A DNA stretch of 64,000 nucleotides from Styela clava (taxonomy: Eukaryota; Chordata; Ascidiacea; Stolidobranchia; Styelidae), in assembly GCF_964204865.1 (NCBI RefSeq), contig NC_135258.1:8795001-8859000 (forward strand), read 5' to 3'. The first letter of the stretch is position 1; the number at the start of each line of letters is the position of its first letter. The notes under the pieces were generated by a model. It made no database searches, was not told the DNA's origin, and saw nothing but the letters and a program-made list of their open reading frames with translations. The translations under genes were made by a program, and so were the position numbers. Positions 19,101 through 56,880 of the stretch are shown here, one piece after another.

Positions 19101-21733
19101 TTTCAAGCCATTAAAGCGAATCTTTATCTTTTGAACTTGTTCCCTGGTGCAGATGGCATTATTTAGTTCAATTTTTGTGCCCTGTCAAAGTTTTTGTATA
19201 AAACTAATATCTCTCAATTCAGGAATGGGGAGGATGCGGAGACAACACCGACTACGCATATGGATTCGCAAGAGAATTCATTGATGCTAGAGAAAGAGAC
19301 GTACAATCACCACGAAGCCCAGAGTCACGTGCCAAAAAAGCTATGAACATCCATAATAACGAAGTTGGAAGATTGGTAAGTTAAACATTAAATTTGAAAA
19401 TGTTCTCTCGAAAGGGTGTACATCCACCTGCCTATATAATGTATAAACAGTAAAAAGTATTGATGGCCTTCAAGCCAAAGCTTTCCCCACACATACACGC
19501 CAAAACATAGAGATTATAGGATTTCTTTTGGTCAGAGGTTAGGAAATACAAGAAAATATTACGACAGCTAATCCAATACCATCTGAAGTTTCATGGCTTG
19601 GTTTACCTGGTGGATCGAGAAGGATACCCGTACCTTTCTACACATGCAATGATATAGTAACATAGTAACTTATTGCTACATAACTTAATCCAAAAATCGG
19701 TATTGGTACTTACATGATATGTTCTGAACATTTGTTCCAGATTTTACTAAAAAATTTACGAGAAATTGGCACGTTTTACGCCACGGCTCATTACTTGTTC
19801 ACAAGTAACAAACTAATATTTTGTTATATGCAATATTACACCGATTTTCATAAACAACCTACTTGCGTATAACGTACCGTGGGTTGACAAGCGGTTACGT
19901 GAGTCTGGGAACGACAAAATCTTTGTTTGCCTTCGCTACGCGCAACTTAGGAATCAAACGCAAAACAAGACAATAGGTAAAGAGGGACGTAGGTGGGTCG
20001 AACTTGGGGATACGTGCCATTTACTGCAAAGAATTTGTTGAATGCCTATCATTAGGTATCTACAGATTTACCTATATATCCCTAAAATCTCAAATTTGAT
20101 CTTGTGCAATGTAAATTCATATATAATTTCTGACCTTGTTTCAAGTCAGTTCTTAGTATTTTCCATTTGATATGAGAAATTCAACGAAAAAAATCGTTTA
20201 CAAACAACAAAAAAAATGGTTAAATGAGATAGAAACCTCATTTAAATTTAAAAAATTTAAGGGTCATGGCGTGTATTATGACTCGTGAGTTCTTAGGAAT
20301 GTGAAGCAAGTTTAAGTTCAACCTCTCAAACCATATCGGTACCCGCACATTGCGCCCTAGCCACATCAAAAGGGGTTAAGAGTCAACATTCATTACTTAT
20401 TTTTTACTTTGATCAACCCACATGTTCTAGTTAATTTCCCAGAGTAATGATGCATAGCTTGACATGTTAACGGGGTGAAAAACGAAAATATGATAAATTT
20501 TAGTTTTTTCAATTCAAATTTATAAAGAGGAAAAATTCTTTAATGAGTGATCACGCAAAAAATGAGAAGATAACACTTACATAGTGTATATATTCTAAAA
20601 TCATCAAAATACAGATTCCATAACTTTCCTCTAATCGCATTACAGCGACAAATAAAAATTGAGATTTTTTGCTCTGGCAATCAATTAATTAAGAAAGAAA
20701 TGATAATGCTCATTTTTGGAATTTAGAAAAAAAGAGTTATGCTTCAGGAGGGCGTGTTTGCATAAGAACGTGACCCTTACGCCCCGATACCCCCCATTCT
20801 TGCGACATTGCCTGATATACTGAACTTTTTCGTGAGAACTCGATGTCGTTAACCAAAAGTCCTCACCCACCACTCGGGTGTGTTTAATTTACCAAATACG
20901 ACATCGTTACATGATATCATCCGCGGCTAAATATTATCGACAGCGCAAAACTAATTTGTCACAAAAATAAGGTTTTATCACACTAGTAATATAGTGAAAG
21001 AACGTAATTTTGAGTGTTTGCTCGGTAACGTTACCGATGACGTACTGGCTGTGTTTGTTATGGTGATAGCTTATAGTGCAACCTAATCTCAATGCTGCTC
21101 CCGTTGAAATTAGAAGTTAGACTAAGCACAGTCAAGCCCGTTTCGACTAATTTTGTACTAAAGATCAAATTTGATCGACAGTGATTTTATGTTATTTGAA
21201 TTTTTTTCACACATGAGGGGACTTTTGGTCAAAAATAAATATTTTTCAAGTTTCGTATCAATATGTTTTTACAGGCTGTTGTCAGAGCAGCGCGCCCAAC
21301 CTGCAAGTGCCATGGGGTCTCAGGATCGTGCAGTCTGAACACCTGCTGGCTTCAAGTTCCTGGTTTTCGTGAAATTGGCGAAAAGTTAGAGGAAAAACAC
21401 AACAATGCAATTGAAGTCAAGGTCACCAAGCGTGGGGAATTAAGGAAAAGAAAGAGAAGTAGTCCAGATGTTGGAATGATGGATCTCGTCTATCTTGATT
21501 CCTCTCCCGATTATTGCAGCCCCAACCCTCGAACAGGGGTTCTCGGTACGAAAGGTCGTGAATGCAATAAAGATTCATTTGGAAAAGATGGATGCGGGTT
21601 TCTATGCTGTGGAAGAGGTTACGATTCATTCACAGTAGAAATAGTTGAAAGATGTAACTGTAAATTTCAGTGGTGCTGCGTTGTTAAATGCCAGAAATGT
21701 AAGAAACGTGTATTGAAACATATTTGCCGATGA
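13038..21733 (+). CDS. Wnt5-like secreted signalling ligand, gene 1 (five coding exons)
   Basis: Complete model: join 13038-13135, 14631-14899, 18576-18715, 19223-19375, 21275-21733 (1119 nt, 372 residues plus stop). All introns are GT-AG, with phases 2, 1, 0, 0. Residues 15-28 form a hydrophobic signal peptide after a basic segment, followed by the WWELG start of the mature Wnt. The mature part carries 24 cysteines as in canonical Wnts, an N-glycosylation site at Asn97 (RWNCTT), and CHGVSGSC in which Ser236 is the residue that Porcupine palmitoleoylates in known Wnts. Subfamily motifs favour Wnt5: [32 protein letters not shown], DAREREx-like linker, CSLNTCWLQ and [12 protein letters not shown]. 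It would be secreted to bind Frizzled/Ror-type receptors. It lies tail-to-tail with a paralogue at 26288-39962. Orthology to Wnt5 rather than another Wnt is inference; being a Wnt is near certain. Confidence 0.93.
14631..14899 (+). CDS. Wnt gene 1, coding exon 2
   Basis: Begins after TTTTTACAG at 14630 and ends before GTAAGA at 14900. It encodes the N-terminal domain start: Pro-Cys, [29 protein letters not shown], and RWNCTT with the conserved glycosylation asparagine, then [11 protein letters not shown]. It contains four of the 24 cysteines and is 36 nt longer than the equivalent exon of gene 2 because of a 12-residue insertion after the glycosylation site. Confidence 0.92.
14900..18575 (+). 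other. Intron 2 of Wnt gene 1 (3.7 kb)
   Basis: Noncoding as far as can be supported. A 102-codon open frame at 15981-16289 has ordinary amino-acid composition but no recognised motif; it is not called as a gene. Introns 1 (13136-14630), 3 (18716-19222) and 4 (19376-21274) likewise show nothing recognisable. Confidence 0.6.
18576..18715 (+). CDS. Wnt gene 1, coding exon 3
   Basis: 140 nt between TTACAG (acceptor) and GTACGT (donor). It encodes [20 protein letters not shown] and [13 protein letters not shown], with three cysteines. The same 140-nt length occurs in gene 2. Confidence 0.92.
19223..19375 (+). CDS. Wnt gene 1, coding exon 4
   Basis: 153 nt between CAATTCAG and GTAAGT, 51 codons in phase 0. 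It encodes [19 protein letters not shown], the DARERD linker, and [10 protein letters not shown]. One conserved cysteine. Equal in length to exon 4 of gene 2. Confidence 0.92.
21275..21733 (+). CDS. Wnt gene 1, coding exon 5 (C-terminal cysteine-rich domain)
   Basis: 459 nt after TTTTTACAG, ending at TGA. It holds the lipidation motif [47 protein letters not shown] and the CxCKFQWCC..KCQKC ending at HICR, with 16 cysteines. The usual FHWCC motif is FQWCC here and also in gene 2, supporting a shared recent ancestor. Confidence 0.94.
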   Translation, partial: AVVRAARPTCKCHGVSGSCSLNTCWLQVPGFREIGEKLEEKHNNAIEVKVTKRGELRKRKRSSPDVGMMDLVYLDSSPDYCSPNPRTGVLGTKGRECNKDSFGKDGCGFLCCGRGYDSFTVEIVERCNCKFQWCCVVKCQKCKKRVLKHICR

Positions 21734-26287: not shown

Positions 26288-26746
26288 TCAATTGCAAATG
26301 TGTTTGAGCACTGTTTCTGTACATTGCTGGCATTTTACATAACAGCACCACTGGAATTTGCAATGACAAGGCTTGACGGTTTCAACTTCGCGTGTCACGA
26401 AACCGCGTCCGCAACACATAAGTCCGCATCCGTCCATTCCAGTTGAGTCTTTGTTACACTCACGACCAGAAGTACCCATGACCCCCATTTTTGGATTTGG
26501 GTTGCAATAATCTGGCGAGGAGTCTAGAAATACGAGGTCGACAATGGTTGGTGATGCTATATTTCCCCATCTTGTTTTGAGTTGTCCACGATGAGTGACT
26601 TTCATCTCCACGGCACCTTGGTATCTTTGTCGTAACCTATCACCGACATCTCTGAAGTCAGGTACTTGCATCCAGCAAGTTTTTAAACTGCAAGAACCAG
26701 ACACTCCGTGGCATTTGCAAGTAGGTCTCGTGGCTCTGACAACACT
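26288..26746 (-). CDS. Wnt gene 2, coding exon 5 (C-terminal cysteine-rich domain)
   Basis: 459 nt after TTTTTTAG, starting Ser-Val-Val-Arg. It holds [45 protein letters not shown] and [16 protein letters not shown], ending HICN; 16 cysteines. A second AG two bases later would break the frame, fixing the acceptor. Confidence 0.94.
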
Positions 26747-32700: not shown

Positions 32701-35700
32701 TGTTTAGGCTTCGAAAGTAAGTATGACGAAACACGCACTTGTTTGTATATTATTTATAATTACATTTCGATCTTAATAATTAACCAATCAGTAATAATGT
32801 CCTATTTTGGATTCGTGCAATTCTCCAATTGCGTGAATAAACTTGTTTTATTATAATGCTGAAAGCGTTTTGTTATCTTATTACGATTCATTACAAATTA
32901 CAATTCGGTGTTACTTATTTCTAAAGTACTAAATTAACAAATGATGTCAATCTACCCATCACGTCATAATATATTAGGTTCCTTGGAGAACTAAAATAAA
33001 AATTGGGGCAAAAATAGGTAATCGAATTAACAATCAAAACAAACTTAATTTTTGCCTTTCTCTCCAGGATTACAGACGAACCACGCATAACTTTATTCAT
33101 GGCTAGTCCAAATTAAATGACGCGATCGTCATTAAAAGTGAGACGCTTCAATTAGTCGTTTGAATCTCAGTGATCATAAATGTTGATTGTTTATTTTAGA
33201 AGTTTTCCATTGCTAAATATTGAGAAAATACACATCTAAGTATACATTTAGTTTAGGCTGGTCAGTAAAAGTTTTAAAGCAATGACGTTATATGATAAGG
33301 TGTACCGCCCGTTTTATATAAACAATAATGGTTTATATTGTTTGCAAACCAAGGGTGAAATCGTTAGCAAGGTAGGAGAAAGGGGAAATGTCGATATACA
33401 AAGGTCTCTCTGCTAGAGACAAGCCCTGGGGGCCTTAACGGGAACTATATGTTAACTCGAAAACTACTATTTACCAACTGTCGAAATAAGTATTTTAGCA
33501 AAAAACGAAATGTCATTAAGTTTGTTGCTTGATATACACCGAGTTGTGTTGCGTTTCGCTTGAATCCCAATAATAGTCAGTGACCTGGAGTTTGAGCGTA
33601 AAGTTAATAAAAACAACACATTCGAATATTTTAGGGTTGTTGATTGAAATCTCCTAAAATATCACCATTAAAAGATACGGGGTTGGATTTAGATTCAGTG
33701 ATGACAAACGAATGCGGAGTTTCAGTCATATTAACGATCGGTAAAGAAGGCATGCACGGTCAATTTCAAATTTCGACGACACATGGCCCGTGGTTAGCGC
33801 GAGGACGTAGCATACTTAAACTCGTTCGAATATTGACAATACACTCGGTTAGGAATGCGGAAAGGTAGACAAAGGCCACTTGGAGCCGTCTTAACCGGTA
33901 CTCCAACTATCATCAATATTAAGATTATACATGAATAGGGTACTCAAGTACGTACTGTAAGTTCAGAACAAGAGTTTTTATGTTACAACAATAGCCTTTG
34001 GTATGTATATATGATCCAAAAATAGACTTTATTGAATACATATAATTACTTCGTATAAAAACGTGAATTTGTTATTTTTATTATAAAGGACTGTCGGGAG
34101 TCGTTATTATAATTAGAATTCATCCATTCATCTATCTATTTTTAGCATGAATAATATTTCATTAACGGATGGTAATATTTTCTTATATCGATAGGTGGCA
34201 TTTGTCAGCCATTTGATAAAAGTAACGAAGCAAGTAGTTAACCCGATTGAGGGCATGAATCGCAGAACAGCGATGCAGTGCACAGTAAAGTTGCATATTT
34301 AAGTTCTCACCAACTGTAATGGATTTTTCTGGATTCGTTTCAGGTGACGTGCTACAATTCCATCTGCTTTCTTGCATTTGATGTTTGCATTCTGCCAAGC
34401 CGTTCCGTGCACCCATGTTTACGTAAGGCATATGGTCATTGTATCGGTGACATAGAGACCTCTGATTTCTAGACAGTCCGCGTAAATTATGACATTTAAC
34501 AGGACGACTTTCTTCTAATTCGATTCCTTCATTTGCCAAAGTCCTGCAAAATAAACGATATGGTTTAATTGAGAATTCCTTTTTGGGCTCTATACGTAAG
34601 AAGAAACTTGTCAAGCTGAACGATGTGGAATTTCACATTTATAGTCAACCCTCAAATGCATGTAAATTTTTTTAATATTTTTAACAGTCAATAGTTGAAA
34701 CATTCCAAAACGACGTGACGGCAACATTATCTTAATTTGCGCATCTGCAAACGCGCGAAAACATCTGATAATTGCCGGATAATGTCCTTATAATCAGCCT
34801 CCCATTAAGAAGATTACATATTTCATTGTCAAGTCCGCTGATACAGTAACGCAACAACATTTGGTTACAGACGAACGATACCGGACAAAATCATAATGTT
34901 CAATCGAACGGTAAACCGTTATTATTGAACTTATAAACTAGTAATTTAACAATTACTCGTGAACGTGGAAGTTGGTATACTATATAGAATGGTAATTTCG
35001 GGGTAGGGTTCAGTGTTTAACAACAAAATAATCTAAAAATAGTATGAAAAAATAATAGAGAAATTCCGATGCCGAAGTAGCGAATCAGGCATGTCATAAG
35101 GTGGCTGAACTTATAAAATATTTTACGACGATTAGGACCTATGGGCAGGGCATATTTTGAGATTATAAAAAAAACGTTTTGGTAAACGTAACGATTATTC
35201 CCCAAAATCAGCAGAATATGTAACTCTATTTTACAGTTATATTGATGAAAATGGTAATTATATATTAGAATGCCATAAGTGTGCAATTTAACAAGTGTGA
35301 ACGAGATTTCTTAATTTGATGGTTGTGGATCTTAATTTTCACCTTCGCTTACGGTATGTTTTTTAGCGCACGCGATTCGTTTCGGAATGATTCGCGTCGT
35401 TTCGCTTAACTGCGACTATCTTCCCTTTCTCATAATTGTTACGTTTGAGTCAACATAATTCGCTAATTTAGCAACGTTTTCCATGTTTTGATCGGCATCT
35501 ATGGGAGAACCCAACAACTTCTTGTTGACCTATAATGCGGTTCGACGATTTTCAAACAAGAGGAAGAAATTTCTCCAGTGCTTTTGCGCAATTTCAATGG
35601 CCCCGGAAGTCGCGGCTGTCAAATTTTATGCCATTCCGGCGTCGAAACAGCTATTTCAAATTTTAGGAAAACCGCCCTACTATTTGCCTTAACCACACGG

Positions 35701-43900: not shown

Positions 43901-44439
43901 CTGGATATTTGGCACTGTTTTGTAGCGGCGATAAACTTATTTAGCGTTGGTTTGATAGTCTTGAGACAGCATACAAATGTTCGTCGTGTGCGGAGGGCTA
44001 TTTGGTAACTGCTCGGGGCAAACATCTATATTAAAAAAAATCTGTTTTATTTTTTTCTATGTATTATTTGCGAAAGTATTCAAATGATGAGTAACATTTA
44101 TCCAACATATTGGAGTAAATGTTAGAGCACGATTTGTTGTTTCCACGTTGGATGTTCGCTAATAAAAAGCATAATTAAATCACAACTAGTCATCTCATTT
44201 AACGCAACGTACAAAAAATATGGCGACTAAGATGAGTAATCGCAATTTGCTGTCATTTAATGTTTATAGTTTTCATAATATCAGAATTAACATCACGGAA
44301 GATGGACCATCATATCATAACCTTATGAGGAATATGAACCAGTGAGTCTTATCCGCATATTCATTACTCATCACACTATATCTCTCAGAACGACTCTAAA
44401 AAGTAATTGAAGGAAAAATCGATATGAATTTTTAATGAC

Positions 44440-44529
44440 GACTTTCCTGTAACGGAACAAAGAATTCTATAAAAGGGGACAATACGCATATTTTGCATCA
44501 TTTCACTTTGTATAAACGAAAGAACTCAG
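44440..44529 (+). promoter_or_regulatory. Promoter and noncoding exon 1 of peptide gene A
   Basis: A kappaB-like box CGACTTTCCT at 44439-44448 is followed about 20 bp later by TATAAAA at 44468-44474. Transcription should start near 44498, giving a noncoding first exon that ends in ACTCAG with donor GTGAGA at 44530. The TATA-to-donor distance is 62 bp here and within 2 bp of that in the other two copies. The acceptor before the coding exon is TCTCAG at 44754. NF-kappaB/Rel control is inference from the box. Confidence 0.7.
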
Positions 44530-44758
44530 GTGAGATTTTAGAGAAAATATTTTTTTTTTCATGTAATTATGAGTGTTTCATTAGTAAGTATTGCCTTTGA
44601 TAACTCAGTTTTTCAAACACACTCTACACTGGAGAAGTTCAAGTTTTATAATATTACTTTGTTTCTATTAAGATATTCCTTAATCTTTAAAAATGTTCAT
44701 TTTATCTCCAATGACTTTGCAAAATTTCTATAACAGAAGTTTTACACATCTCAGAATC

Positions 44759-44904
44759 ATGAAAACTGCAATCATTCTAGCTTTGGTAGCAATATTTGTT
44801 GTTAATGTCTCAGGAGGATGGAAAGGCTTTACACGGAACCTGAAAAAACCCGGTTCAGTAGCGGTTAAAGCAGGTTCTGTCGCGCTCAAGGCAGCGAATA
44901 GTCC
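44759..44904 (+). CDS. Peptide gene A, coding exon 1 (signal peptide and first helix)
   Basis: 146 nt. The start is the second in-frame ATG after the acceptor-proximal region: the exon begins at 44755 after TCTCAG, so only the ATG at 44759 is in the mature mRNA. Donor GTAAGT after AGTCC. Confidence 0.85.
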
Positions 44905-46146
44905 GTAAGTCATTTTATTCACACATTAAATATGATTTCATGAATAATTTTTTCTCATTATTTTTACTTGGAAAATGCATAGTCTTTCATAGATAAAAAT
45001 TTTGTCATGTTGTTTTGCTGAGAAGTATAAAGAAGTTGTCAAGTTTTAAAACTTTTCAACTTTTAAATTATAGACCGGGAAAGTATCAAAAAGATAAATG
45101 ACGAATAAGAATAACATAATTCCTTTACACGAAATAGCAAGTATATTTGTGAACATATTTGTGAACTAACGGAAGCTGACAAATATACATGCTTATTTGT
45201 GAAACGAAAATATTTAAAGTTATCCACCGCGCATTGTTAATTCATTCATTTTCTGTATTCAGGACGGGACAAATAGCAATGGGAAGCGCAATGAGCCAGC
45301 TCGGTGATATGCGTGCAATTAGAGAAATGGTAAGATTTGATTATTTTTCCTAAATATTTGTCTACAACAAATAAAACAAAATTCAACTCAAACGAGGGAG
45401 AAAAACTGCACAAATACTGAGGTTATACAGAATAAAAACAGCGCCCAGACTTGAAATTTAAAAAATTTGAAAAATTGAGAAACAAATAATGAAAGTACAC
45501 ATTTGTCAAAATTTTTCTCATAAATTTGATACTTGTGAATAATTATAATATTAATAAATCTTTTCGTTTATTTAATATCCAAAAGTTTAATAATCCATCT
45601 TTATCGTCACAATCAGAAGTTTTTAATTGTAGACCTAGATCAGCTCAGTTACATTCGCAATTGAATAATGCCTTCATATTTTCCCAGGACGAGACCAAAA
45701 TTAGTCAATTGTTTGACGCAATTGAAATGATCAGAGAAATGGACGACGGTATGTTTTTTGGATAAAATCACAAAAAAATTAAAAAAACATACAAAAATAA
45801 TTAATTTTGAATCTAGTCAAAATTTATCTTGCCAGTATTGAAATATTAAAAAAATAGCATTGAATATTTTATCATTTTCAAATTTTACAAGTAATATAAA
45901 TTAGTTACAAACTGGCTATATATCCGTTATTCCATATAGATTTTCAGATTTTTATATTATTAGTAAATTTTTGACTGCATAACATTTTTCTTTATTTTTA
46001 ATTAGTTAATTTAGTAAAATATTCATAACATAAACAATAAAATACCATAAACGATTGCTATTGAGAAAGTATCATTAAATTATAATATCGTTTCAGACGA
46101 ATTCCTCTACTTCGCAAAAGCTGCAAGCATGAAAGATTTTCAATAG
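44759..46146 (+). CDS. Cecropin/styelin-like cationic secreted peptide precursor, copy A
   Basis: Model: join 44759-44904, 45263-45329, 45688-45748, 46097-46146 (324 nt, 107 residues), GT-AG introns in phases 2, 0, 1. Residues 1-19/20 are a signal peptide (MKTAIILALVA start, SGG end). The mature peptide would begin at Gly20/Trp21. Helix 1 (about 21-48) is rich in Lys, Ala, Gly and Val; a Ser-Pro-Thr-Gly hinge (48-51) is split by the first coding intron; a second hydrophobic segment runs to Leu-Gly-Asp at 62-64. Residues 65-107 form an acidic tail with IREMDET and FAKAASM blocks. A tryptophan near the N-terminus, a basic first helix, a hinge and a hydrophobic second helix are cecropin hallmarks; an acidic C-terminal propeptide after an LGD is styelin-like. 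Probable role: membrane-active innate defence peptide, released by cleavage of the tail. The family name and activity are inference; coding status is supported by three conserved copies. Confidence 0.85.
45263..45329 (+). CDS. Peptide gene A, coding exon 2 (second helix)
   Basis: 67 nt after GTATTCAG. Completes the hinge proline and encodes TGQIAMGSAMSQLGD and the conserved AIREM; donor GTAAGA. Confidence 0.85.
45688..45748 (+). CDS. Peptide gene A, coding exon 3 (acidic tail)
   Basis: 61 nt after TTTTCCCAG. Encodes DETKISQLFDAIEMIREMDD; donor GTATGT. This exon is the most conserved among the copies and has the same length in all three. Confidence 0.85.
46097..46146 (+). CDS. Peptide gene A, coding exon 4 (C-terminus)
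   Basis: 50 nt after CGTTTCAG to TAG, encoding DEFLYFAKAASMKDFQ. The AATAAA at 46352-46357 lies about 205 nt after the stop. Confidence 0.85.
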
Positions 46147-46351
46147 AGAGTGATATAATGGAGTAAAGACAAAAAGCTACAACAATTTTTCTTAACATTT
46201 GATTTAATACTGAATTGTCAAATATTGCTTGTCTAATCAGATATATACTTCCAAAAAGTAAACGGTCAAAACTCATGTCAAAATTAACAACAATAATCTG
46301 TATTTCTTTCATGTTGCAATATGGTTGTTTTGTCACATTTTTTGTTGCCCA

Positions 46352-46357
46352 AATAAA
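46352..46357 (+). other. Polyadenylation signal of peptide gene A
   Basis: AATAAA in the context GCCCAAATAAAGAAAG, conserved at the same distance from the stop in copy B (48772-48767, minus strand) and copy C (56354-56359). Confidence 0.75.
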
Positions 46358-47290
46358 GAAAGGTTTATTGAAAAATACGTGTTTATTGATAATCAAAATC
46401 AATTTATTAACCATCTGAACAGTTGTAAAAACGTTGGATGTGTTACCACCCGCTTCGTATGGAGCTCGTTATTTCCGAATTCGGTAATTTCGGGTTTTTG
46501 GGTGATTAAATATGATATGGGATTATAATCATATCCACCAATATGTGAGAGCTTATTCTTCAAGAGTCGGCCTTACGAGCAAGATGCTCGATTGTTGATA
46601 AAACGGTTTGTTATTGCCCACTTGTGGCATGTAAAATTGCCATCGTGCTATACAACATGGAGCCTCAAAGAAGTCGATTCATTCCATGAAACAATTCATC
46701 GTTATTATTTATTTGTGCGCTCATATTCAGAGAATAAATACTAGTTGAGATGCAAGTGCTAGTTGAATTTTGTAGACATATCGCTACTCGCTTTGGCAAA
46801 AAATATAGGAAAAGTAATAATCTCTCCCCTCATCCCGAGAAGTTTTATAGTGAATAGAAATCGTACAAGATTGTAGTTTTTTGTTTACCTTTTCTACGTG
46901 GGGCTTTTTAAAATTGAAATTCTGTGCGGAAATACGATTCTTTTCATTTTGAAATAAACTTACTATATATTGCGTATAACAACCTTGAATTGACACGCTC
47001 CGTGAAACATTTTTTATTATTCCTTCTGGAGATTCATAGCATAATAGTTTATAATATATATATAAAATAATAATTTCACACGACTCATGTCTTTCTATCT
47101 AAACCAGAGTTAAATCCCAAACAAAACTGACCTATTTTCATTTCCTAGATTATTGTAATCTCCTGTAATATTACAACATCAACGGGTAATGGAGAACATT
47201 GACTAAGATGTCGTCGAGGTGTGAATTCTATCATATATAATTTCCGGAATTTATTTATATAGCTAACTGTTCTCTGCAGGACTCCTTAAT

Positions 47291-47699
47291 CATGTAAAGA
47301 AACTAAGCCATGTTTATATTTCAACCTCGGAAATAGAAAGGAGTTACTAACCCTTTACTATGCACCTTATAACAAACAAATACTGTATTTTATGAACCAC
47401 AAGGCGCACTTTGAATCATATTTTTAAAAAGCGATCGTGCGCCTTATAAGCTGGCGCGCCTCAATTGAGCACCCCACGGTGACAATACTATATCATTTGC
47501 TACCCGAAAGCAGTAGCCTAGCCTAAAAGGTTGACTGTGGTGACTAGAGTATGTTTTTGTTACTGTGACGTGATATTTTTTTAATCTAGTTGTTGCTTTT
47601 TTTTTAGCTAATATCCATACCTCTGTAACGATCTCAAAGATCTTACTACGGTTTTCACTATTGCACGTCTAATCGTAATACATGGAGGTTGTTTTGCTT
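47291..47699. other. Spacer at the centre of the inverted duplication
   Basis: About 400 bp not shared between the arms. It contains repeated GCGC-rich phrases (AAGGCGCAC, GTGCGCCTTATAA, GGCGCGCC) unlike the surrounding AT-rich DNA; similar phrases occur in some animal DNA transposons. No gene is seen. Confidence 0.4.
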
Positions 47700-48766
47700 G
47701 ATTTAGGAATCCAGCAGAGAACAGTTGGCTATATAAATAAATTCTGGAATTTATATCAGATAGAATTCACACCTCGGCAACATCCTAGTCAATGTTTTCT
47801 ATTACCCGTTGATATTGCAATATTACAGAAGATTGGAAACGAAAATATGGCAGTTTTGTTTGGCATTTAACTCTGGTTTAGATTGAAACACATGGGTCAT
47901 GTGAAATCCTCATTTTCACTTTTGTTTGACATTTTTTTTCTGGACTAGATAGCAAGAGGTGAGTCTCAGGGGATCCTTATTTCATAATATATTACGCTAC
48001 GAATCATAAGAAGGGATAATTGAAAGTGTTTAAAGCAGCTTCTTCAATTCAAGATTTATTCATTTCAGACATGTTGTTATATTTGATAACATAGAGGGAA
48101 TTTCTTTCAATTGTACTCAATAAACAGTCAATTTATTTCAGAATGAAGAAAATCGTGTTTCCGCGCAGAATTTCAATTTTAAAAAGACCCACGTAAAAAT
48201 TTAAACCAAAATTTACAATGATTTTTATTCACTATAAAACTTCTCGGTATGAGGGTGAGATAAATAAATACTTTTCCTATATTTTATGAGAGCGGGTAGC
48301 GATACGTCTAAGCAATTTAGCTAGCCCATGCATCTTAACTATTGTTTATTCTTTGGATATGCGCGCACAAACAAATAATAACGATGAATTGTTTCACGGA
48401 ATGGAACGTCTCCATGGCCATATCCTAGGTCCCTATAGTATAATCGAAATTTTACATGCCGCAAGTGGGCGATAACAAATTGATTTCTAAAAAATCAAGC
48501 AACACGATCGTTAGGGCCATCTCTAGTAGTGGTTGTTCATCTGTAACTAGCAAAGCGCCAAGAAGAATAAGTTGTTACAGATTTGAAGGTATAATCCCAG
48601 ATCATAATTAATCACCCAAAAACCCCAAATTACCGAATTCGGAAATAACAGGCTCCGTAACGTAGCGAGGTTTAACACATCCAAAGTTTTTGCAACTGTA
48701 CTTTGTTCAGATGGTTAATAAATTGATTTTGTTTATCAACAAATACGTATTTTCAATAAACCTTTT

Positions 48767-48772
48767 TTTATT
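48767..48772 (-). other. Polyadenylation signal of peptide gene B
   Basis: AATAAA on the minus strand, about 200 nt beyond the stop, in the same sequence context as copy A. Confidence 0.75.
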
Positions 48773-48972
48773 TGGGTAACAAAAAGTGTGACAAAACAGC
48801 CATATAGCAAGATCAAAGAAATACTGATTTATTGTTGTTAATTTTCACATAAGTTTTGACCGTTTCTTTCTTTGAAATATGATTAGACAAGCAATATTTG
48901 GCAGTTTAGTATTAAATCGAATATTAAGAAAAATAGTTGTAGATTTTTGTCTTTACTCCATTTTAACACTCG

Positions 48973-49022
48973 TTATTCAAAATCTTCCATGCTTGCAGCT
49001 TTTGCGAAGTAGAGGAATTCGT
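48973..49022 (-). CDS. Peptide gene B, coding exon 4
   Basis: 50 nt after CATTTCAG to TAA, encoding DEFLYFAKAASMEDFE. Confidence 0.85.
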
Positions 49023-50452
49023 CTGAAATGATATTATAATTTAATTTAATTAATAGTAATTGTATATGTTCAATATTTTACCAGATTGATTGAAAAACAT
49101 ATAGATCGAAAATTTAATAAATATCTAATGAAAATCTCAATTGAGTAACATTTGAATAGGTAGTTCAGTGTCTTATTTATATTTCTCACAAAATTTTTGA
49201 AAAGTCATAAATATCAAATGTTAATTTTTCAGGATTCTGTCAATATAATCTACACCGAAGTGTCACAAAACTAGTTATTTTTTATGTTATTTTTATTCAT
49301 TTTATTTTCGTGGTATTATGTAAAAATATACCGTCGTCCATTTCTCTGATCATTTGAATTGCATCAAACAATTGATTAATTTCAGTCTCGTCCTGGAAAA
49401 TTTTGAATGCATTGTTAATACGAATAATATTGATATCTATTTCAACGATTAAGAACTTCTAGTTGTAAATAAATAATGTAGAGACAAACAATCAGTTGAG
49501 TATTCAAAAAATCAAAGGCATTAATGACTATTTTATTATTTTCAATCAATCAAATGTATGAAAAAATATTTCTTGTCAACTGGTAGGTGTTTACATTTTT
49601 GTCGTAGGCGAATATTTAGGACAGTAAATTGAAACTCACCATTTCTCTAATTGCTTGCACATCACCGACAAGGCCTATTGCGGCATTCACTCCAGATTTT
49701 ATTATTGCTCTACCAGTCCTAAAGACAGAAAGTGAATAATTTAAATAAAAACCGTGATTAACGTCTAACTTGAGAGTTTTTAAAACACTGAAATTACTTT
49801 GTACTTCACAGCAATATGTCATGAAATTTTATATTTAATGGACACGGAGTGGACTTATGGATCGTTGTTTGTTGTTGTTGTTCTTGTTAGAATTCATCTT
49901 CTTACATTTTTTAAAAGTCGCTTTACTCTTTAATTACTGGACCAATTGCTTTGTAATTTTCAGTTGTCAAAGATTGTTCGTTAAAGACTGTTACTTTTAT
50001 TTATTTCAAAAATTTTCGTGGGCTCTAAGAGATTCGTTTTTTTTGTATGCGATGACGCCATCAGAATAAAAAAACGCTGCTTGTGGTGATTTCGTCCGGA
50101 GACAATGCCGTGAACACAGCGGGTACCGGTAGGATATTGCGAAAGACTGTATGCGCGTACTACTCCGTGTCCATATATTTGAGCATCGGTTTCTTGTAAT
50201 TGAATGCTATTTTTTTACAAATTGACAATGATGATGTCAAAGTAAAATACTTTAAGGTAATAATTACAAAGTCGTTGTCACATGAGTGCGTATTGAGTGT
50301 GAGAATAAAATGACTTACGGACTTGTCGCTGCTTTAGCCACAGCTTTGCCAGCCTTTGCACCAAACTTCAAGATTTTTCTTCCAAATCCCCATCCTTCGG
50401 TGTTTTCAACAACAAGCAATGCTACTAAAGTCAAAATGATTGCGGTCTTCAT
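48973..50452 (-). CDS. Cecropin/styelin-like cationic secreted peptide precursor, copy B
   Basis: Model on the minus strand: 50452-50319, 49718-49640, 49392-49332, 49022-48973 (324 nt, 107 residues), GT-AG introns in phases 2, 0, 1. Signal peptide residues 1-20 (MKTAIILTLVALLVV start), then Trp21. The first helix (21-44) contains RKILKFGAKAGKAVAKAA and is the most basic of the three copies. The Ser-Pro-Thr-Gly hinge falls at 44-47, four residues earlier than in copy A, while exon 2 is four codons longer, so the Gly-Asp that ends the mature part is at residue 64 in both. The tail has DETEINQLFDAIQMIREM and FAKAASMEDFE. Transcribed towards copy A (convergent). Its first coding intron is 600 nt (358 in A) owing to a repeat insertion. 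Function as a defence peptide is inference. Confidence 0.85.
49332..49392 (-). CDS. Peptide gene B, coding exon 3
   Basis: 61 nt after TTTTCCAG; encodes the acidic DETEINQLFDAIQM segment; donor GTATAT, weaker than GTATGT in the other copies. Confidence 0.83.
49640..49718 (-). CDS. Peptide gene B, coding exon 2
   Basis: 79 nt after TCTTTAG, 12 nt longer than in the other copies. Encodes TGRAIIKSGVNAAIGLVGD and AIREM; donor GTGAGT. Confidence 0.85.
49838..50174. mobile_element. Dispersed repeat R2 inserted in peptide gene B intron
   Basis: Ends read ATGGACACGGAGTGG and, inward from the right, ATGGACACGGAGTAG, giving inverted terminal repeats around 337 bp with no coding capacity. The introns of copies A and C lack it, so it inserted after duplication or was lost there. 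Internal block GTGGGCTCTAAGAGATTCG recurs in related form at 4100-4325 and 59242-59489. TA may be duplicated at the ends. Confidence 0.6.
50319..50452 (-). CDS. Peptide gene B, coding exon 1
   Basis: 134 nt; acceptor ACTTCAG ends at 50464, ATG at 50452, donor GTAAGT at 50318. Encodes the signal peptide and basic first helix. Confidence 0.85.
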
Positions 50453-50744
50453 GGTTTTGTTTTCTGAAGTTTAATATGGTATTTTATCAATTATACATTA
50501 TGTTTGGTCATTCCCCACAAAATACAAGGTTTGTATGGTTTTTGAAATAAAATCTAAACGAATTCCAAATAAAAAACTATGAAGAAATAGGAGTTTATAA
50601 ATAGAAACAAAAAATAGAATACATATAGAGTATATACGCTAACTTCTCTGTTGTAATGGGCTTTGTAAGAATTCGTTTAAAAAGATAAAAAATAATGCTA
50701 AACCCACGACTATACAGAAATTATCAATTTTTCTGAAATCTCAC

Positions 50745-50837
50745 CTGAGTCTTCTTCGTCTTTACAAAGTGAAGTGATGCAAAAGATGTGTGTTGTGCCT
50801 TCTTTATAAAAATCCTTGCTGGTTGACGGGAAATTCG
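50745..50837 (-). promoter_or_regulatory. Promoter and noncoding exon 1 of peptide gene B
   Basis: Minus-strand TATAAA at 50808-50803; the noncoding exon ends ACTCAG at 50745 before GTGAGA. About 20 bp upstream of the TATA box lies GGGAAATTCG (50828-50837 on the plus strand), matching nine of ten positions of the kappaB consensus GGGRNNYYCC. The surrounding TCAATGACGAATTTCC block is shared with copies A and C. Confidence 0.7.
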
Positions 50838-51240
50838 TCATTGAAAATCCATCTGGATTTTTTCTTTAATTACTTTCATAACTTTTTAAGACAGGAAAGG
50901 ATTTAGAGCCGCTTTGATGGGTAACGCAATGCGTAATGAATCATATTTGTACCTGATGTTTACCATACGGTTATGACGAAAAAGTTCGTTTTACGTTTTA
51001 TGAACTCTGACATTCTCTAACTCCATGAACATGACATGAATTTTCTTGTTTGTTTTTGCTAAAATCACTCAACTCATTTTGGTCGTGTTGTCGGTTATGT
51101 TCCATATTTTTGCTACATTGTGTTAAAATGAGATGACTAGATGTGATTTTGTTTTTTATGCTTTTATTAGCAAACACCCTAATAGTGATCTATCATTTAC
51201 TTCAGTATGCTGAATGAATATTACACATCACATGAAAGAT

Positions 51241-52600
51241 AGCAATCTTATTTTGCTAACATGCACAGTGACTCGAAAAAACACAACCCAGAAATTTCTT
51301 TATCACCCTTGCAAAAATGAAGAACATTTATTTCACGCTTTGTGTATGATTGTACACCAAAGATTCAGTAATTGGAAACAAAACAAAAGTTCGCACAAAA
51401 GTTATGTTCTCTCGAGAATGTGTTCCTAATAACCTGTACATTAACTAAACACATATTTTCGATAATTTTCGGTATTCCCGAAGTATGTGTACCAGGTTGA
51501 AGGCCATTATTTTGTACCAATTTTCCTTATTTCAGTTCTATTACGAGTTCGAGGACTAGCCAAGTGACTCCCGTATAGTATAATTTTATTGTTATAGCGT
51601 CGAAAGTACTGTGCTCGATACAGAATTTAATATTAAAAGGTAATTTCGTATATATAGAACCTTTCCAAATATGGTAACTACATTTATGCATCAAAAATCT
51701 GAACTTGTATGCTCGTGTCAGATCTCTATTGTTGACTGGGCGAACTGCCATGATGGTATTTTATTTTATTTAGAAGTATTCTCGCATTTCTGCTTTCTGC
51801 TATAATTTTCTCTTCTCTTACACATAACATTATTGCGCGGTAAAATATTTTAAATTTTTGTCTGTTAAATCTGTTTAATTTAGTCAATTCAATATTTTCC
51901 ATTCAACTCACACTCTTTTGCTTGAATCATCCATTGATTTTTTGCATTGTAATGCCCTTTTTATTTAATAAAAATGAAAAATACAATTTTATAATTTATT
52001 ACCGATACAAACTTTAGCAATGTTCATAAACCTATTTTTTTTTATTATTCCCTCGCGTTGTCGCAGCTTTGTGTCAATCTTTACCCTGTCAAAGACCGAA
52101 TATTGAAAAAATCAAACGCAGCAGTTATTGAAGACTGACGAAGATCTCATACTCGTAGCACATTTTATGTTTACTCAAGTTGTTATGTATGGAGCGCAAT
52201 TGCGCGCAACCGTGGGAAAATTAACTTACGTAGCACAGCCCCCAAAAAATTACAAAATAGTGCGATACACTTGTACTCACAATGATAAACTAAATACATT
52301 CAGAGTGTTCATTTTTCTTATTTCTTTTTTTTTCGAGAGATGTTTAGATTATACGGCAACGTCAATTATAAATATACTTTTCCGACCCGGAAGCGAATTT
52401 TTCTGAATCATAAACACTTTTCTCGATTGGCATTGTGCGGCTTTGTGTGTTCGACCTAATTTTCAATTTGCAACGATATTATTCTAAATCGCGATCCCAC
52501 AATGTCAAATGATAGCTTTTCACGCGATACCTACTTTCGTCCGAAAAGTATTAAAATATATTTAAACCTTTTAATTAGCTATGGTATGTGTTGAATATTT
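51241..52600. other. Unassigned DNA between duplication units
   Basis: AT-rich. A single end of the MITE-like family (CCGAAGTATGTGTACCAGG) lies at 51476-51498. Short frames here carry no recognised motifs. Confidence 0.35.
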
Positions 52601-52601
52601 T

Positions 52602-52720
52602 ACTAGTCGTTTGATTATGTTTTTTATTTGCAAACACTCATTGTGAAAATATCAAATCGTGCTCTATCATTTATCGCAAGATGTTGGATGAATGTTACAC
52701 GACATGCGAAAACCATCTAA
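52602..52720 (-). repeat. Relic of the peptide-gene upstream region (fourth unit fragment)
   Basis: ACTAGTCGTTTGATTATG, AAATCGTGCTCTATCATTTA and GATGTTGGATGAATGTTACAC match the distal upstream region of copies A (reverse complement of 44090-44200) and B (51130-51240), in the orientation of copy B. No promoter or exon follows to its left, so the gene part has been lost or was never copied. Confidence 0.5.
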
Positions 52721-54469
52721 TTTATTTTGTTAATATATTTAATAAACATACATTTAGACTTTTGCACAACAGTAAAGGAGATTATTATAATACAATTTTA
52801 CAACATTTCTCAAACGGGGAAAAAATTTGATGTTTCGAGGATCAAAATGTTTCTTTTTATTTGCATGTGGTATTACTATACTACTGGTATATTATATTTG
52901 CTGGTATTTTGTGACTGTTAATTAGTTTCAGCTGCTGAAATAAAGATTCCATTTTATAATTAACGATGATTTTATTTTCATATTTCTGAAATTGTTATGC
53001 TTAATACAAAATTGAATATATATTGAAAATATATACATATAAATATTTTTGTTAAAAACTCCTACATTTGTAGAAAATATTTGAATAAATCAAAATATAA
53101 ACTTGGTGTCATATTCGATCTTAAAAATGTTGACTAAGGACGTCTGTGTTTTTATTTTATTCCCGTAGGCGATTTTATTCTCTTTCTTTCTGATGCGATT
53201 TGAAAATATCTTTTTAACTTAAGTCATCTAAAGATTGACTAAATTGCGCTATATTTTAATTATTTGAACTTCTATAGCAAGTATAAGAAATGAAAAGTAC
53301 CAAGTAAATGTCTCATTGAATAAATTTTACGTTGCATGAACCAGATAAATGTCTTGCTGCAGTAATACTTGTTCGATTATCCCGATAGAAGTAAACCGCC
53401 AAACTGTTTCGGTAATATTTCATTTCACAAAATAATTTTTTTTAAATTAAAATCTAATAAAAATGGAATCATTGTAGAACTTCAACAAGTATGTGTGACT
53501 AGCGAACAATGTATTCTCACTAGTTTTTTATCAAATATTTTTAATACTTATTAAGTGTTATATCAAGCGCAGTAGTTTCAGAATATGACCAAGAGGGAAG
53601 CTTTTTAAATATAAAAATAGAATAAACAGGACTGATTTCACCTATAATGAAATTTTTTTTTATTATATTTTGCTGCTACTTTAGAGTGAGGTCTACCGCT
53701 ATGTATAGCTTACTCAGATGCGGCAATTAGAGTGTTTATAAAAAAATGCATGAAAAGGTGTGTTCATGAGGGGGGCGTGGTCCATTCTTGTCTTTCTTGA
53801 AAGAGTATATTATTTTTCCGTATACAAATCATTTATTGCATCCAAAAAAAATTCATTATTGCAAAATATATGTTATGTTTTACAGTTTCCAATCGCCTTT
53901 GTTCTGTGATAATAACTGCACTCGTGCTTATAAACGTGAAGGAAAAGGTGTAAATGTAAATCTCTCATATGCATTTAAGTTATTTTTTGAAGTTGAAAGT
54001 TGGGAAGTCGGTCACAAAAACCAGGCAAACATTTCTAATGAAAAATTTTTTATATTTTTTTTTATCCGAGGTATATATCGATGCATTCATGTGTTTATTA
54101 ATATTTATCTAACATATTGGTGTATATCTGGATCACGACTTTTTATGTACTGGGATTTGCTAATAAAAATACAATTAAATCACAACTAGTCATCTCATTT
54201 TACACAATATACAGAAAATATGAAGAAAAATTGAAAATACGTCCAAGATGAGTAAGTGTCAGTCATTAAAGGATTATAGTTTTCATAATGTGAGAATTCA
54301 CAAAACGGAAGATAAACCATCTTGTCATGAACCTATGGAAAACAATAAGATGTCTTCTCCGCTTATTCATTAGTCATCACATTATTCCTCAGAACGACTC
54401 TGAATCCCTTCCTGTCTTAATGATTTACAAAAGTAATCAAATCATAAATCCAGATGGATATTCAATGAC

Positions 54470-54561
54470 GAATTTCCTGTCAACCAACAAGGAATTCTAT
54501 AAAAAGGGGACAATACACATCTTTTGCATCACTTCACTTTTCAAAGACGAAGAATACTCAG
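54470..54561 (+). promoter_or_regulatory. Promoter and noncoding exon 1 of peptide gene C
   Basis: CGAATTTCCT at 54469-54478 (kappaB-like on the other strand: AGGAAATTCG), TATAAAA at 54498-54504, noncoding exon ending ACTCAG at 54561 before GTGAGA. The acceptor TTTCAG at 54844 precedes the coding exon. Spacing agrees with copies A and B. Confidence 0.7.
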
Positions 54562-54855
54562 GTGAGATTTCAGATATAATATTTTTTTATATTTCATGGT
54601 GAGTGTTTAATTAGTTCTGCCTTTGCAAACTCAGTTTTTTAAACAATCTCTACAATAGAGAAGTTTGAGTTTTAATATATTATTCTGCTGTTGTTTCTAT
54701 CAAGAAACTTCTTAAATCTTTACAATTATTCAGTTCGAATTCATTTCATTTACAATGACTTCACAAATAACAAAAGCCTTCTCGGTTTCATTGCATTCCA
54801 TATAAATTCATTTTGTTTTCATTAATCAAGTCATTTAATTTCAGGAAACAAAATC

Positions 54856-54980
54856 ATGAAGACTGCAATCATTCTAGCTTTGGTAGCATTGTTTGTTGTT
54901 GATGTATCCGGAGGATGGGGAAGCTTTACAAGGGTCTTGAAAAAAGCTGGTTCAGCCGCGTTCAAAGCAGCAAAAAGCCC
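54856..54980 (+). CDS. Peptide gene C, coding exon 1
   Basis: 125 nt from ATG to AGCCC, donor GTAAGT. Encodes the signal peptide and first helix. Confidence 0.85.
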
Positions 54981-56136
54981 GTAAGTCATTTTATTCACGC
55001 ATTTAATGTGCATTCAGGGAATACCGCTTTTGATAATTTGCTTCTCAGGTATTTCAATAAATTTATCTCATTGTTCCTAATTTGTAAACGCATGGCATTT
55101 AATTAATGGATAAATATATAATTTTTATGGCATTTTGCTGAAAAGTATAAAATGGTTGTCAATTTTTAAAACTTCCTGCCTTTTAAATTATCGATAATAT
55201 CATTAACATAATATCATTAAACAAAATATCCAGTATATACATATGTTAGCTTACTTACATTTATACTTGCTATTTTGTAAAAAGAGAATACTTCATAGCG
55301 CGTCTCTAAATTATTCACTTTTTTTTATACAGTACCGGTCAAACAGTTATTAGAACTGGATTAAACCTGCTCGGTGATGTCCGTGCAATTAGAGAAATGG
55401 TGAGATATAATTTAATTTCTTGAATACTTGCGTACCACAAAAGAGTAAAAACTTACCCAGAACTAGAACAAAAACTACACAACTTCTAAGGTTACAAAGT
55501 TGAACACAATTAGCGTAAAACATTAAAAATTGGATTTAAGCAAGATATTTGAAAAAGAGCGAATTTGCACATTTGTCAAGAAATTTCTTCATAACGGTAT
55601 TGCTTGCAAATAATTAAAATATAAATCAATGTAAATTTTTTTTTTTTTCAATTACCCAAAAGTTTCATATACAATTGTTACAATCAAAAGTTTTCAGTTA
55701 TTGAACTAGATCATATCAGTGTCATACGCAATTAACAATGCATTTATATTTTCCCAGGACGAGACTGAAATTAATCAATTGTTTGATGCAATTCAAATGA
55801 TCAGAGAAATGGACAACGGTATGTTTTTAGAAAATATCAGAAAAACTAATGAAACAAACACAGAAAAATAGTCTTTTCATCTAATTTAAATTTACTCTAC
55901 CAAAAACCTGAAAGTCGAATATTTAACGTTTTCGGAATTTGTTTTAAAATGTACTTGATGTACTTTGTATTTTGTACATCGGTATTTTTCATTTTTAGTA
56001 AATATTCGGTTGCATGAACCAATTTTAGGAAAATATTCAACACAACTATTTAAAAATAATATCAATAGATGATAACACCTTTTTAGACGAATTCCTGGTT
56101 TTCGCAAAGGCTGCAAGCATGGAAGATTTTGAATAA
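54856..56136 (+). CDS. Cecropin/styelin-like cationic secreted peptide precursor, copy C
   Basis: Model: join 54856-54980, 55333-55399, 55758-55818, 56087-56136 (303 nt, 100 residues), GT-AG introns in phases 2, 0, 1. Signal peptide residues 1-20 (MKTAIILALVALFVV, ending SGG), then Trp21. The first helix (21-41) carries Arg and five Lys/Arg in total with Ala-rich faces and is seven residues shorter than in copy A. The Ser-Pro-Thr-Gly hinge is at 41-44 and the mature segment would end near Leu-Gly-Asp at 55-57. The acidic tail DETEINQLFDAIQMIREM is identical to copy B over this block; the end is FAKAASMEDFE with Val replacing Tyr before it. Probably co-regulated with the other copies. Defence function is inference. 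Confidence 0.85.
55333..55399 (+). CDS. Peptide gene C, coding exon 2
   Basis: 67 nt after TTATACAG; encodes TGQTVIRTGLNLLGD and AIREM; donor GTGAGA. Confidence 0.85.
55758..55818 (+). CDS. Peptide gene C, coding exon 3
   Basis: 61 nt after TTTTCCCAG; acidic tail segment; donor GTATGT. Confidence 0.85.
56087..56136 (+). CDS. Peptide gene C, coding exon 4
   Basis: 50 nt after CCTTTTTAG to TAA, encoding DEFLVFAKAASMEDFE. Confidence 0.85.
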
Positions 56137-56353
56137 TGAGTATCAAAATGGAGTAAAGACAAAAAACTACAATTTTTTCTGATTATTTGACTTAATATTA
56201 ATTTGTTGAATATTGCTATATTAATCAGATAAATAGGGCCTACTTTAGAAAAGTTAACAATCGAAACTTATTTGAAAATTAAATAGAATAAATCAATATT
56301 TCTTATGTTTTTGATATTGCTATGTGGCTGTTTTTTCGAACTATTTTTGCCCG

Positions 56354-56359
56354 AATAAA
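56354..56359 (+). other. Polyadenylation signal of peptide gene C
   Basis: AATAAA about 220 nt after the stop, in the conserved GCCCGAATAAAGAAAA context. Confidence 0.75.
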
Positions 56360-56880
56360 GAAAACTCTATTGAAAATATGTGTCCATTGATAAATAAAAT
56401 AAAATCATCTGAGGCTGAGCAACCTTTAGATGCACAAACATTACAGTTCTTTGCATTTATAACATATAGATCTTGTCTTCTTCTGGTTAGGTAATTTTGG
56501 GTATTTTGATAATTAACTATGTTCTGAGATTATACCAGTCAGCCTGTATGCTGGTTCCTGGCGTTTTGCTGGTAACATATCAGCAATCACTATGAAAGTT
56601 GGCCTAACGAGCATTCTGCTGGATTGTTGCGGTTTGTTATCATCCACTTGCGACATGTAGGATAGCCAATACGACAGGAACATAGAGACTTGAGGAGACG
56701 GTTTGTTACAACAATTCAACAATTTTTATTCATTTGTGAACACATATACACAGAAAATATAAAAATTAAAGGGTGAATATTGAAAGGCTCGCTAAATTTC
56801 AATGACGTATAATTTCGAGATTGTGAAAAATATAGAAAAAACATTATTCCTTGTTTCTTCACCTCTTGAAGTTGCTTTTG

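Follow-up and report, generated by a model that had tools for sequence, protein, structure and literature searches.

Three genes of one cluster in the window

The DNA described here is a window of 64,000 nucleotides from the genome of the ascidian Styela clava (contig NC_135258.1, hereafter C10; C10:8795001-8859000), within which positions are counted from its first letter. It carries three small spliced genes, copies A, B and C, whose products are, judging from their sequences, very likely secreted linear cationic antimicrobial peptides made by the route of the styelins and encoded by a cluster of at least five genes. The three copies were rebuilt from the DNA with GT-AG introns in phases 2, 0 and 1 in every case, and gave precursors of 107 (A), 107 (B) and 100 (C) residues after splicing. 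Compared with a database of 5.77 billion proteins, the product of copy A is identical over its full length to S. clava P0005 (LOC120339922) and that of copy B to S. clava P0001 (LOC120339921), both named "uncharacterized", and the product of copy C is close to S. clava P0002 (LOC120339236). The gene models are therefore not the outcome of chance. A first-pass annotation, made from the letters alone, had proposed spliced genes at these three places, with precursors of these lengths, four coding exons and common intron phases, in what looked like an ascidian, and all of this was borne out, the species being identified by the protein database matches.

In copy A (+ strand) a TATA box (44468-44473) precedes a non-coding first exon that ends at 44529 (44468..44529 with the box). 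Coding exon 1 (44759-44904) contains the signal peptide and the first mature segment, with a phase 2 donor inside SP|TG. It is followed by exon 2 (45263-45329), with the second mature segment, the Gly-Asp site, the propeptide start and a phase 0 donor, by exon 3 (45688-45748), with the acidic propeptide and a phase 1 donor, and by exon 4 (46097-46146), with the propeptide end and the stop codon. Copy B lies on the - strand, with its TATA box at 50808-50803, a non-coding first exon ending at 50745 (50745..50808) and coding exons at 50452-50319, 49718-49640, 49392-49332 and 49022-48973, the last including the stop. The corresponding features of copy C (+ strand) are the TATA box at 54498-54503, the end of the non-coding first exon at 54561 (54498..54561) and coding exons at 54856-54980, 55333-55399, 55758-55818 and 56087-56136, again with the stop in the last one. 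The TATAAA box and the end of the non-coding exon, CAG|GTGAGATTT, precede each of the three copies and are conserved also in L036, a relative on contig C4. Because each copy has this extra exon, there are twelve junctions rather than the nine counted at first. The database isoforms P0002 and P0006 start upstream, within the very stretch that carries the TATA box, and hence their additional N-terminus is probably an annotation artefact.

Another conserved element, GACGAATTTCC-like, is located about 20 bases 5' of each TATA box, at 44437-44447 (+), 50829-50839 (-) and 54467-54477 (+), and by eye is similar to a kappaB site. The arrangement of copies A and B is tail to tail, and their 3' ends and 3' flanks form an inverted duplication (46074..49045, without strand) with arms of about 1.2-1.4 kb each, comprising the inverted repeat pairs I2, I10, I14, I16, I6, I9, I12 and I3.

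The cluster extends beyond the window. When the whole genome (376.6 Mb, 379 contigs) was searched with the DNA pattern of exon 3, allowing up to 3 mismatches, the pattern appeared at five places, all of them on C10. Reading 214 kb around the window yielded two more intact genes, copies D (C10:8908679-8909895) and E (C10:8951155-8952323), 57 and 100 kb beyond copy C and again with phases 2, 0 and 1; copy E equals the coding part of P0006. The cluster is thus made up of at least five genes (A to E), and the "three-gene" cluster of the first-pass annotation was too small, given these two copies and the further relatives elsewhere in the genome.

All five precursors have the same layout. A hydrophobic leader of about 19 residues, whose cut before Gly-Trp was placed by eye, is followed by a mature segment that begins with Gly-Trp, is 36 to 43 residues long and has a net charge of +6 to +8, and by an acidic tail of 44 residues with a net charge of -6 to -11. 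An invariant Ser-Pro-Thr-Gly hinge, split by the phase-2 intron, divides the mature segment, and the Gly-Asp at its end is invariant in 7/7 aligned sequences. The signal start, Gly-Trp, hinge and Gly-Asp noticed originally are all present in these seven sequences; the proposed MKTAIIL start is retained in them as MKT-IIL, the fourth position being Ala in six and Val in one. By hydrophobic moment, the first mature segment is amphipathic beyond shuffles in 5/5 copies (p 0.002 to 0.0125), in keeping with the secreted cationic two-segment peptides that had been predicted, and the second is hydrophobic (mean hydrophobicity, five copies).

Relatives in the genome

The protein of copy B found 17 exon matches in the genome at E <=10, of which 14 are in the cluster, two on C4 and one on C3. 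The two C4 loci, L036 and L037, code for one identical protein of 103 residues that has SPTG, GD and VEDFE, with phases 2, 0 and 1, and the promoter pattern of L036 matches that of copies A, B and C. The C3 locus (L038) is a Trp-rich variant with the same phases. With the C4 protein as query there were 33 exon matches, 30 on C4 and three in the cluster of the window. On C4 these define 12 places between 4844732 and 4971766 (C4:4844732-4971766), all on the + strand, with exon 1 at 11 of them and exons 3 and 4 alone at the twelfth. Six places could be read as genes: L036, L037 and, among five more that were examined, L054 to L057, whose exons 1 to 3 can be read with phases 2, 0 and 1. At L058 (C4:4862070-4862790) AGG stands in place of the ATG found in the other copies read, so this locus may be dead. 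L054, L055 and L056 have one Cys in the predicted mature peptide, which would permit dimers as in dicynthaurin, the dimeric precedent described in an excerpt of PMC2866484. With the C3 protein there were 11 matches, through which two further genes were located on C10, L060 (C10:9037400-9039280, -) and L059 (C10:9047480-9049300, +). Both were read over exons 1 to 3 and are Trp-rich, with phases 2, 0 and 1 and Trp-Asp in place of Gly-Asp.

These comparisons point to strong kinship of copies A to E with the C4 and C3 genes (z 5.7 to 11.6). Compared over the signal and over exon 3, the five C10 copies resemble four C4 sequences with z 11.0 and 11.6 over shuffles, and the C3 sequence with z 5.7 and 7.5. 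On the evidence of phases 2, 0 and 1 and of a related signal and exon 3, which the genes on C3, C4 and C10 have in common, A to E, the C3 and C4 genes and the other C10 genes are to be considered one family. The homologues of the precursors that the first-pass annotation had suggested looking for do exist in the protein database. Nine queries, with 3623 candidates scored, found 10 proteins, all from S. clava: six of the A-to-E family, one of the C4 type (P0007) and three styelins, the seven non-styelin ones being named "uncharacterized". The search requires shared short words, so other ascidians could still carry relatives.

Divergence of the mature peptide

In close pairs at three places, namely D/E, three of the six C4 pairs and L059/L060, divergence in parts of the mature peptide outpaces that of the adjacent introns. 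The pooled ratio of replacement to silent differences (pN/pS) over the 10 C10 pairs is 0.39 for the signal, 0.69 for the mature peptide and 0.35 for the propeptide. The closest of these pairs, D/E, has an intron divergence of 0.115. Its replacement divergence is zero for the signal and amounts to 0.036 for Gly-Asp plus propeptide, 0.082 for the first mature segment and 0.534 for the second, the last in excess of the introns (Fisher p 7e-7). The second mature segment exceeds the introns in 9/10 C10 pairs, with p <0.05 in four of them (A/B, A/E, C/E and D/E). Among the C4 pairs the excess of the mature part over the introns has p <0.01 in 3/6. Between L054 and L057 the mature pieces differ at 13/66 aligned sites plus 39 gap bases, compared with 31/454 in both introns (p 0.0015), and the signal, the pro part of exon 2 and exon 3 together differ at 1/145. 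For L059/L060 the second mature segment differs at 9/37 sites and the introns at 54/549 (p 0.012). Altogether, the outer parts of the gene are nearly fixed, the signal and most of the tail changing less, while part of the mature peptide changes unusually fast. The mature segment is not the same in P0004 and P0006, both assigned to LOC120340204, a sign that the gene may vary from one assembly or individual to another.

Several observations weigh against a simple reading of these differences as selection. The first mature segment exceeds the introns in only 1/10 C10 pairs (not significantly) and is significantly below them in two (C/D and C/E), and in L059/L060 it differs at 2/59 sites, with 3/30 in the pro part of exon 2. 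Three of the six C4 pairs have no significant excess, and intron 2 of L054/L057 differs at 24/228 sites vs. 7/226 in intron 1. Since the pairs share genes, neither the C10 nor the C4 tests are independent. The ratio of replacement to silent substitution rates (dN/dS) of the signal also reaches 1.08 in 2/10 C10 pairs (it is undefined in one), and that of the mature peptide is above 1 in only two (A/E and D/E). This last figure would also be compatible with an origin of the excess by gene conversion, or by short segments being copied in from genes not seen here, instead of selection on point changes. So would the second mature segment of D/E, where silent changes are high as well (4.5 of 8.8 sites), and the length changes by which the C4 and L059/L060 pairs differ. 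However, in L054/L057 both mature pieces differ around an intron that is 97% identical (7/226), something that a single conversion tract cannot explain. We give conversion a substantial, if minor, share of the probability.

Known peptide families and probable mode of action

Styelins have reportedly been known since 1997. A published stretch of 20 styelin residues (with X) found nothing as a query against the genome, but the Pfam model located three styelin genes on the same contig as copies A to E (C10 16.31-16.34 Mb). Once spliced, they have four coding exons and phases 2, 0 and 0 in 3/3, and two of the products are identical to P0008 and P0010. The phase 2 intron falls inside the mature peptide and the first phase 0 intron after Gly-Asp-Met. 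A splice acceptor is found just 5' of the start codon, making a non-coding first exon likely here too. In an excerpt of PMC8659048 the styelin precursor is described as a signal followed by the mature peptide, with Gly as its amidation signal, and by a pro-piece at the C-terminus; according to an excerpt of PMC7387483, styelins are cleaved N-terminal of Asp. The same pattern (signal, mature peptide plus Gly, acidic pro-piece from Asp) is recognisable in the sequences of A to E, and the styelin-like acidic propeptide of the first-pass annotation agrees both with the published layout and with the styelin genes of this genome. The Gly-Trp start, the Gly-Asp amidation and cleavage site, the four coding exons with a phase-2 and then a phase-0 intron and the probable non-coding first exon are likewise common to both groups. 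Unlike styelins, A to E have no Lys-His-Lys motif, and neither this motif nor a Phe-rich mature peptide was seen in their alignments. Their mature segment is longer, with the SPTG hinge, and their pro-piece has 44 residues vs. 26 in styelins (the latter from the same excerpt of PMC8659048).

From these sequence comparisons, kinship of the A-to-E family with the styelins is likely but not proven. The opposite, that the two are unrelated and arrived at the same layout independently, appears rather unlikely to us, although a number of results speak for it. The Pfam Styelin model (PF17562) has no match in A to E, whether as precursors or as mature peptides (five of each), and matches all three styelin precursors of this genome used as control. 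The third intron is in phase 1 instead of 0. The propeptide exon of the C10 copies is not significantly similar to that of styelins (z 1.2, p 0.109), and with C4 the similarity is borderline (p 0.022) and with C3 again not significant (p 0.084). The profile comparison with styelins spans 30 columns, covering only the signal and the start of the mature peptide (probability 88). On the other hand, an independent origin would have to account for the shared contig and the four coding exons, with a phase-2 intron in the mature peptide and one of phase 0 just past the Gly-Asp region, whereas the clavanin gene of this genome has three coding exons and phases 2 and 1. It would also have to account for the signal of A to E, which resembles that of styelins with z 8.5 over shuffles; the likeness of the signal alone is weak evidence, because a control, the signal of clavanin, is above shuffles as well (z 4.7). 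In L059 and L060 the Pfam Styelin model has matches that stay under its threshold (E 0.012 and 0.65) and extend over most of its length (positions 1-55 of 59), and the reversed L059 has none, yet unrelated families score as well as these two.

The first-pass annotation had also called the peptides cecropin-type. As a description of the two-segment design this stands: an amphipathic basic start with Trp at position 2, a Gly/Pro hinge, a hydrophobic end (by hydrophobic moment and mean hydrophobicity) and a probable C-terminal amide are found in both. As a statement of kinship it is not supported, and we regard true cecropins, sharing an ancestor with those of insects or acquired by transfer, as extremely improbable, even though styelins were reportedly published as cecropin-like in a paper title. 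Cecropin membership was rejected since the profile, genome and shuffle tests all gave no support. Pfam Cecropin (PF00272) had no match at E 10 in the five precursors and five mature peptides (cecropin A control, E 2.6e-15), and A to E aligned with cecropin A no better than with its shuffled versions (p 0.216, 0.052, 0.520, 0.444 and 0.414). The same model had no match in the genome, a weak negative given that the genes are searched exon by exon. Insect cecropin genes are not known to have the acidic C-terminal propeptide that sets A to E apart. Moreover, the mature peptide of copy A aligns better with frog dermaseptin (z 7.2) than with cecropin A, which indicates convergence. The Pfam dermaseptin model (PF12121) has no match in the precursors or mature peptides of A to E (dermaseptin control, E 1.9e-7). 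Frog precursors have the acidic piece before the mature peptide, unlike the order in A to E. Those of dermaseptins are said, in a paper title cited by PMC7387483, to combine a conserved signal with a hypermutable antimicrobial domain.

Among the other peptides of tunicates, clavanin-like exons were located at C1:10538332 and C1:10574722, 83% and 87% identical to published clavanin B. Clavanins come from S. clava too, have a leader starting with MKT and a mature peptide ending in Gly-Asp-Asp, but they are His/Phe-rich and their charged piece precedes the mature peptide. The clavanin gene that was spliced (C1:10574722) has its mature peptide in the last of the three coding exons, a plan not seen in A to E. 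Ci-MAM and Ci-PAP of Ciona and botryllin of Botryllus resemble A to E in design, having a cationic helix and then a C-terminal propeptide, in the excerpts of PMC7387483 and PMC9966394. They were not among the matches of the protein search, which depends on shared short words, and of the five copies only E resembles the helix printed for Ci-MAM-A (z 3.0, p 0.006).

With this layout, the genes probably make membrane-attacking defence peptides. The leader would be removed and the acidic tail would hold the peptide inert in storage, until a cut before Asp frees the Gly to be turned into a C-terminal amide. On a microbial membrane the freed peptide may then fold, with an amphipathic helix joined through the Pro hinge to a hydrophobic segment, and break the membrane, an attack like that of cecropins by design and not by shared descent. 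Amidation would not apply to the C3 type, L059 and L060, in which Trp-Asp replaces the Gly-Asp of A to E. There are points that fit this mechanism less well: the second segment lacks significant amphipathicity (p 0.10 to 0.62), and that of copy A has no net charge, and one AlphaFold model has helices throughout with a very low confidence (mean predicted local distance difference test, pLDDT, 44.9). The PDB search, and NCBIfam for four proteins, gave at most weak matches to unrelated proteins (best E 0.079) and unrelated models, respectively. Secreted peptides with another role, e.g., in signalling or in egg or tunic secretion, and with cationic helices by coincidence, would fit the "uncharacterized" names of the seven database proteins. 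Such a role is improbable in our opinion, with change concentrated in the mature segment and a layout equal to that of the precursors of styelins and other ascidian antimicrobial peptides in the published excerpts cited above. A defence function is the interpretation that we prefer.

At a wider scale, we see about even chances that all these genes form an unrecognised superfamily of at least 23 S. clava loci (5 + 2 on C10, 12 on C4, one on C3 and the three styelins). In it, a nearly fixed chassis of promoter, signal, hinge intron and acidic tail would carry a mature peptide that diversifies faster than the introns, in places on both sides of an intron simultaneously, with copies varying between individuals. 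If true, this would be a chordate counterpart of the peptide arsenals of cone snails and frog skin. A larger set of S. clava genes that look related to styelins is listed in databases as uncharacterized and falls outside the Pfam models tried; if the peptides are active, it would offer a series of natural variants built on a single scaffold. Vertebrates have their sister group in the tunicates, which are not known to have adaptive immunity of the vertebrate type. A clustered and fast-diversifying arsenal makes testable the idea that their defence is varied by gene number and focal peptide evolution. In a literature search of non-subscription papers without their supplements, none of the five LOC entries tried (LOC144422059 not among them) was named in any paper. 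Nor did we find one on tunicates that brings together antimicrobial peptides, gene duplication, hypervariability and signal peptides, or one joining S. clava, chromosome-level genome and innate immunity. The papers returned on styelins, S. clava antimicrobial peptides and Styela transcriptomes were chiefly reviews, plus botryllin.

As for the rest of the window, tRNA and Rfam scans of the 64 kb gave no matches. The stretch 21263-21733 (+) is the C-terminal part of a Wnt gene (Pfam wnt, E 7.4e-59) and 26288-26704 (-) that of a second one (E 4.7e-55), and the frame at 34183-34614 (-) resembles another Wnt exon by eye.

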